Of a DNA stretch of 64,000 nt, positions 33,598 through 35,097 are shown one piece after another. The stretch spans positions 132,322 to 196,321 of the forward strand of contig JACPUW010000030.1 of assembly GCA_016192035.1 (NCBI GenBank), in the 5' to 3' direction. Positions within the stretch are counted from its first letter, which is position 1, and each line of letters begins with the position of its first letter. The DNA comes from Bacteroidota bacterium. GTDB lineage: Bacteria > Bacteroidota > Bacteroidia > CAILMK01 > JACPUW01. The notes below the pieces were generated by a model. The model was not told the origin of the DNA and searched no databases. It worked only from the letters and a program-made list of their open reading frames with translations. Both the position numbers and the translations under genes were made by a program.

Positions 33598-35097
33598 ATG
33601 CAAATTGAATTACAGGAAACAGGACTACACGAAGGGGTAATTACCATTGATATTTCAAAAAGCGATTATTCTGAGTCAATTGACAAGGCGCTTAGGCACT
33701 ACCAAAAAAGCCTCAACATTCCTGGCTTTAGGGTAGGAAAGGCCCCACTTGGCTTGATTAAGCGCAAATTGGGAGAGGGTTTTCACAAAGATGAGATCCT
33801 TAAGTTGGTACAAGATAAACTGAATGACTACTTGGACCAAAATGAAGACAAGTTTCTGCTTAACCCTTTAATTGACAAGATCCCTGAGGGCGAGACTTGG
33901 GATAATGAACCAGAATTGAGGTTCACGTTCAAAACGGCGTTACGACCTGATATATACTTCAATACTGACTGGTTCAGCGATATTGAGATTTACCAAGTGG
34001 ATGTCGCCGATGAGATGATAGAAATGGAACTCAAGCAGGTTCGGGAGCAATACGGACGGCTTGAGGAGGTGAATGTGTTTGATAAAGATGAAGTTGGAAT
34101 GGTCAGCACAATCTTGTCAAGCGTAGATGCAGACGGCAAAAGTGTAGAGGGAAATATCAATGGCCACCGGGCGTATATTTCATCCCGCTACATGCCAAAT
34201 TCGCTGTTGGAACGCTTCCACGGTCTTGAGGTTGGTGAATCCATCACCATTGACCTGGTGGAGGAATGGAATAAGGAGACGTTTGCCCGTGTGGCAGGCA
34301 ATGGCGATTTTACCGCGCAAGACTTGGACGACAGGGTCAGCATGTCGATTCAAGGTGTTTCGGTGCTTCGATTGGCCTCCATGACACCTGAATTTTTTCA
34401 GGAAATATACCCTTCTGAAAATGAGCCTATAGAAACTGAAGAAGCATTTAGGGCGGTATTAAAAGACCGCATAATGGAGTATTACCACAATGAAGCAGTG
34501 AAACTCATCCAAGAAAAAGTGGAGGAAAGGCTACTGGATAAAGTGGTCTTGGAACTGCCTTTAAGCTTTATAGGCGAGTGGTTTAAAAAGAATAATCCGG
34601 ATACCGACGATGCGGAGTTGGATGATTTTATCGACTCACTGCGTTGGGACATGATACGGGGTGAACTGGCTAAGACCTATGAAGTAGAGGTTCGTGAAAC
34701 CGAAGTGTATCATGGTGTTAGGTCATTTGTTCTTTCTTCATTTGACCAGAATACACTTGCATCGCTTCCTAAGGAGATGATTGACAAGCAGGTAATGGAT
34801 GTGTATAAAACACCAAGGTTCTTCAATATGATTTCGGGAATTCTATTGTTTCGAAAATCAGTGGATGCCATGGCAGTACGCAACCTCTTTACTCCTGTTT
34901 CTGTCAGTGTAGGAGATTTTGTTGAAAAAAAACAGTTGCTGGACGAGGAGAGACGGCTACGGCACGAAGCCGAAGACCGGGGCTATGACCCCAGCCGCAG
35001 GCACCACGAACACCCCCACGACCACGACCACGACCACGACCACGACCACGACCACGACCACGACCACGACCACGACCACGGGCATCACCACCATTAG
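33598..35097 (+). CDS. tig: Trigger factor with a His-Asp repeat tail
   Basis: A ribosome-bound chaperone that meets nascent chains. The ribosome-binding signature is seen as IPGFRVGKAPLGLIKRKLG (about residues 40-58). A PPIase-like middle domain (VGMVSTILSSVDADGKS, RFHGLEVGESITIDL) and a helical C-terminal domain follow. The unusual part is the end: after residue about 465 the protein runs into RRHHEHP, ten HD dipeptides, then HGHHHH, about 18 His in all, encoded by the hexamer CACGAC. Such tails bind Ni, Cu, Zn or Co in SlyD and HypB. The tail and size (499 residues, against about 430-450 usually) set this member apart. It stands directly upstream of clpP-clpX, the usual order. Confidence 0.92.
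   Translation: MQIELQETGLHEGVITIDISKSDYSESIDKALRHYQKSLNIPGFRVGKAPLGLIKRKLGEGFHKDEILKLVQDKLNDYLDQNEDKFLLNPLIDKIPEGETWDNEPELRFTFKTALRPDIYFNTDWFSDIEIYQVDVADEMIEMELKQVREQYGRLEEVNVFDKDEVGMVSTILSSVDADGKSVEGNINGHRAYISSRYMPNSLLERFHGLEVGESITIDLVEEWNKETFARVAGNGDFTAQDLDDRVSMSIQGVSVLRLASMTPEFFQEIYPSENEPIETEEAFRAVLKDRIMEYYHNEAVKLIQEKVEERLLDKVVLELPLSFIGEWFKKNNPDTDDAELDDFIDSLRWDMIRGELAKTYEVEVRETEVYHGVRSFVLSSFDQNTLASLPKEMIDKQVMDVYKTPRFFNMISGILLFRKSVDAMAVRNLFTPVSVSVGDFVEKKQLLDEERRLRHEAEDRGYDPSRRHHEHPHDHDHDHDHDHDHDHDHDHDHGHHHH
35017..35080 (+). repeat. Hexanucleotide tandem repeat (CACGAC)10 plus CACG
   Basis: Ten perfect copies of CACGAC followed by a partial copy, inside the 3' end of tig and read as His-Asp. 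The unit is six bases, so copy-number change would lengthen or shorten the tail by HD pairs without a frameshift. Confidence 0.97.

Follow-up and report, generated by a model that had tools for sequence, protein, structure and literature searches.

Precedents for His-rich metal tails on bacterial proteins are provided by SlyD (PMC7055735, PMC7840056), HspA (PMC7840056) and GroEL1 (PMC10170517), with metal bound by the tails of SlyD and mycobacterial GroEL1 (PMC7055735, PMC10170517), and in G3E GTPases H-x-H-x runs are taken to signal that a protein stores or chaperones metal (PMC2770081). How new proteins get the right metal is largely an open question. In the literature searched, which included few subscription journals, no description of a trigger factor with a His-rich tail was found; a 2013 survey of His-rich proteins in Metallomics may contain cases. 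Here, we describe a trigger factor (Tig) encoded in a 64,000-nucleotide stretch of a Bacteroidota genome (hereafter the window; contig JACPUW010000030.1 of assembly GCA_016192035.1) that ends in a run of alternating His and Asp residues, most likely a metal-holding appendage previously undescribed for trigger factor.

The tig gene (33598..35097, plus strand, as are all features of this locus) encodes a protein of 499 amino acids, identified by Pfam, an AF2 model and PDB fold matches. A tRNA-Leu gene (33494..33578) lies 5' of it and clpP (35114..35803; Pfam CLP_protease) and clpX (35809..37041) follow, clpP immediately, in a tig-clpP-clpX order that is syntenic in relatives. At the sequence level, Pfam matched Trigger_N (E 3.7e-27, 95.8 bits) and returned no match to FKBP_C or Trigger_C. 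Residues P42, G43, F44, R45 and G47 were invariant in a 12-sequence alignment, as expected of a ribosome-binding N-domain, and the AF2 model from a 12-sequence alignment (mean pLDDT 85.6) showed an N-domain, a PPIase-like domain and a helical arm domain. The best PDB matches of this model in Foldseek were the E. coli and T. maritima trigger factors (E 7.6e-21 to 1e-18), with modest global TM-scores of about 0.5 to trigger factor structures, for which domain motion may be the reason. Judged from the model, the protein is thus a full trigger factor with the N-domain, PPIase and C-arm layout. Its C-terminus reads RRHHEHP-(HD)10-HGHHHH, and 18 of the last 40 residues are His. The tail, residues 468-499 (34999..35094), is predicted to be disordered, with pLDDT values around 50 or below, and consists from residue 469 onwards of HHEHP (35002..35016), (HD)10 (35017..35076) and HGHHHH (35077..35094). 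The (HD)10 tract is spelled by ten identical CACGAC units, so that the initial annotation of a nucleotide-perfect repeat with these flanks on a trigger factor was borne out; TRF reported a period-6 array at 35003-35080 (score 135). The CACGACCACGACCACGAC array occurs once in the 2.98 Mb genome, in which a reversed control pattern gave 0 matches. Given (HD)10 and the codon usage of the window (CAC 0.60, GAC 0.53), identical spelling of all ten units has a probability of about 1.4e-5, which points to an array homogenised or recently grown at the DNA level. The uniform spelling fits slippage, and tail length in this lineage was probably set by slippage of the hexamer.

The tail is absent from tig of the closest genomes compared, one of the same genus (G001) and one of the same family (G002), and from the other order-level relatives read, and it is thus lineage-specific in this organism. 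The gene itself has diverged markedly: identity to the same-genus relative (L010/L274) is 30% for tig, compared with 86% for clpP, 90% for clpX and 85% for rsh, and the branch leading to the window tig has a length of 2.18, whereas those of its sisters are about 1.0. The tree places the window sequence outside the group formed by the same-genus and same-family sequences, on this long branch, but an AU test did not reject its grouping with the same-genus sequence (p 0.22). The composition of the tig body is mildly low (GC 0.438, GC3 0.473). Replacement of tig by gene transfer was considered and rejected, since with this AU result and so mild a GC deviation an unusually high evolutionary rate of the gene in this lineage would suffice to account for the divergence. 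Elsewhere in the window, the ORF at 43408-45030 has a GC content of 0.415, which is low given that long ORFs average 0.486, and is possibly a recent arrival.

Beyond this lineage, seven phyla or more have trigger factors with His-Asp tracts, which lie in four different places of the protein. A genome scan recovered such trigger factors in Bacteroidales, Actinomycetota, Trueperaceae, Gemmatimonadota, Planctomycetota and Chloroflexota; the peptide HDHDHDHD was among its patterns, which biases the scan to tract carriers and makes it uninformative on frequency. The C-terminal tail is the commonest place and includes the window protein, L039, L059/L060, L063, L068, many Actinomycetota and L051 of Deinococcota. 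An N-terminal extension carries the tract in L044 (Planctomycetota), the PPIase region in L049 (Chloroflexota) and L061 (Bacteroidota), and the arm domain in L043 (Gemmatimonadota, near residue 349) and L262 (Pseudomonadota, near residue 359 of ORF 424-2013), this domain being the part of the protein that should contact nascent chains. The L061 tract aligns to residues 219-226 or so of E. coli trigger factor, in the FKBP flap, the place of the inserted domain in SlyD. In a tree of 68 trigger factors, at least seven changes of the His-rich label were required, the starred branches forcing all seven, although outside Bacteroidia nearly all rows had been chosen for having a tract and gains there are uncountable. 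The tracts at different sites of Tig do not represent one inherited tail. The differing positions are better evidence than the tree for separate origins, and convergence on four positions, spread over seven phyla or more, can hardly be put down to noise. The initial statement that such a feature is not usual for Tig is correct only in part, as the tracts recur across many phyla and are found in almost the whole of one actinobacterial family.

The proteins that carry such tracts were surveyed in 990 genomes (395 Bacteroidota, 296 Actinomycetota and 299 Pseudomonadota), of which 17, 27 and 51, respectively, contained (HD)4 DNA in pattern scans. Host classification, which covered 30 of the 51 Pseudomonadota genomes with matches, yielded 83 (HD)4 ORFs, some of them probably in wrong reading frames. 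The leading Pfam hosts were CobW/HypB/UreG (13), Trigger_N (10) and Cation_efflux (6), followed by NicO (4), NHase_alpha (nitrile hydratase alpha; 4), Ribosomal_L22 (3), UreE (2), and single cases of ZnuA, Ni_insertion and others. Apart from Tig, the customary bearers of such a run thus deal with nickel, zinc or cobalt. SlyD-like proteins by sequence with HD tails were also present (L270, L271). The Tig tally counts Trigger_N matches only, and two of its ten members (G000, G449) were search centres and thus present by construction; four further candidates (L247, L252, L253, L260) were dismissed as trigger factors, their flags having come from a query containing an HD run. The expectation for Tig is one gene in some 2500, compared with the 8-10 of about 80 hosts seen. 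The excess of 10 in 83 corresponds to p ~1e-22 with related genomes counted separately and to p ~1e-15 with seven lineages counted among 60 hosts, and even with the two search centres removed p remains very small. Other proteins with such runs included an RNase E/G family protein of Pseudomonadota, in which the His-Asp run lies in the N-terminal portion (L248), and, in two genomes of Bacteroidota, ATP synthase subunit a with what appears to be an HD run at the C-terminus (L066, L067), ATP-synt_A being matched by 2 of the 83 ORFs.

In the actinobacterial family of G543, 61 of 70 sampled Tig tails have at least three His (median 9) and eight have none, those seen being acidic and D/E-rich; in the genus of G238, within Bacteroidota, a His-rich tail is kept in three species with varying sequence, length and spelling. 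Among 41 HD tracts, 37 are of mixed spelling (two or more spellings), and adjacent units share their spelling at a frequency of 0.38, compared with 0.36 expected from codon usage. Selection thus appears to act on the amino acids of the HD tracts, codons being mixed as expected, and neutral slippage would not keep tracts with synonymous spelling so mixed and amino acids so held. In a close pair (L128/L129), three of the 23 tail codons differ, all of them synonymously, although this is a single pair with few differences. When HD runs are scored only if uninterrupted, nonsynonymous change is selected against, a bias of which this pair and the family survey are free.

Based on the survey, metal binding is the best reading of the tail. 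We consider it likely that the tail is in general a functional and flexible appendage, binding transition metals, of a trigger factor that is normal in other respects, a view founded on the sequence, the fold, the predicted disorder, the recurrence of tracts, the company of host families and the synonymous mixing of codons; metal binding itself, the identity of the metal, buffering and a link to ribosome docking are what we infer from these. In such an appendage, the alternating His would supply imidazole ligands, and the Asp would contribute carboxylates while maintaining solubility of the run, so that a disordered tail would loosely hold several ions of Zn, Cu, Ni or Co in labile form. On an abundant protein docked at the tunnel exit, it could buffer cytosolic metal, or act as a sink for it, close to emerging chains, shielding unfolded nascent chains from free metal and/or supplying metal to new metalloproteins. 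If many lineages bear a metal store on Tig, a single gene and its tail would be enough for a direct test of metallation, or of protection from metal, at the ribosome.

The main alternative is that a CACGAC hexamer expanded in frame, by neutral slippage, at a gene end that tolerates a disordered extension, without function in this species. The perfect array (p ~1.4e-5), the absence of a tail in both closest genomes and the fast evolution of tig within its locus (30% identity against 86% for clpP and 90% for clpX) are all in keeping with this, and as the nearest relatives are tail-less the window case is one isolated instance that could possibly be neutral. The initial annotation had taken relatives without any tail, together with no length variation or metal binding, as pointing to neutral slippage; the first of these holds for the two closest genomes, but neutral slippage does not account for the recurrence of tracts on Tig elsewhere. 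Neutral expansion is nevertheless unlikely in our judgement, given that the share of Tig among (HD)4 hosts lies far above expectation (10/83, p ~1e-22), that the other frequent hosts handle metals, that most tracts elsewhere are of mixed synonymous spelling and that non-HD His residues (HHEHP and HGHHHH) stand on both sides of the array. Alternatively, the tail may act mainly as an entropic bristle, acidic and responsive to pH, by which binding to the ribosome or to clients is tuned; in it, His would titrate charge and metal would be incidental. An (HD)n run is acidic at neutral pH, and the eight His-less tails in the actinobacterial family, acidic and D/E-rich where seen, would suit such a role; yet His is retained across many species although D/E alone would do, the same tract is borne by HypB, NicO, UreE and CDF proteins, and tracts also occur inside the PPIase and arm domains, so that a bristle appears quite improbable.

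The metal context of the genome bears on a further proposal, namely that the protein replaces SlyD as a nickel-delivery factor in hydrogenase or urease maturation. Trigger factor and SlyD have an FKBP-type PPIase fold in common, and the SlyD tail is required in hydrogenase maturation (PMC7055735). However, a search of the genome for the cobW/HypB/UreG family returned a single match, a MeaB-type GTPase of the B12-mutase kind, and HypB and UreG, neither of which was found, appear to be absent. Assembly of Ni enzymes is thus an unlikely use of the tail, no Ni-enzyme client being evident, and nickel delivery to hydrogenase or urease is disfavoured to the point of being very improbable. The only other proteins with an in-frame (HX)4H found in this genome were a cation-efflux transporter and a Fur-family regulator. 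With HypB and UreG apparently missing and this His-rich cation exporter and Fur-family regulator present, zinc or copper is likelier than nickel and would be the better guess for the metal held by the appendage. E. coli devoid of trigger factor is copper sensitive, its trigger factor being tail-less (PMC9040851).

C-terminal HD runs also recurred on the ribosomal protein uL22 of some Actinomycetota (L087, L089, L092), and in 4 of the 30 best-matching family members (L213, L214, L215, L217); in G543, an HD run on uL22 occurs together with a His-Asp tail on Tig. The uL22 protein lines the ribosomal exit tunnel, and trigger factor docks beside its exit. These cases, few in number, hint at a shared site. 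It is conceivable, if doubtful, that several lineages independently built a metal depot at the ribosome exit, with His-Asp runs on Tig and, in some Actinomycetota, also on uL22. Such a depot would set labile Zn, Cu, Ni or Co beside emerging chains, for metallation or for protection from metal.

The resemblance to SlyD and HypB tails proposed from the initial reading was upheld by the comparison with known systems. Mycobacterial GroEL1 and Helicobacter HspA offer a parallel as general chaperones with a C-terminal tail that is metal-binding (PMC10170517, PMC7840056), but they are chaperonins, a different family that is not ribosome-bound. HypB, CobW (COG0523) and UreG bear the same kind of H-x-H-x run, whereas these are GTPases with dedicated metal sites and are unrelated to trigger factor. 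The three-domain fold is that of the canonical E. coli trigger factor (PDB 1w26), which, in contrast, has 432 amino acids and no such tail. Like SlyD, the window protein is a PPIase chaperone with an unstructured, His-rich C-terminal tail; it does not have the SlyD organisation of two domains, FKBP and IF, without a ribosome-binding domain, and unlike SlyD, which has neither a ribosome-docking N-domain nor an arm, it combines Trigger_N and an arm domain with a disordered, terminal, His-dense run of the SlyD, HypB and GroEL1 type.
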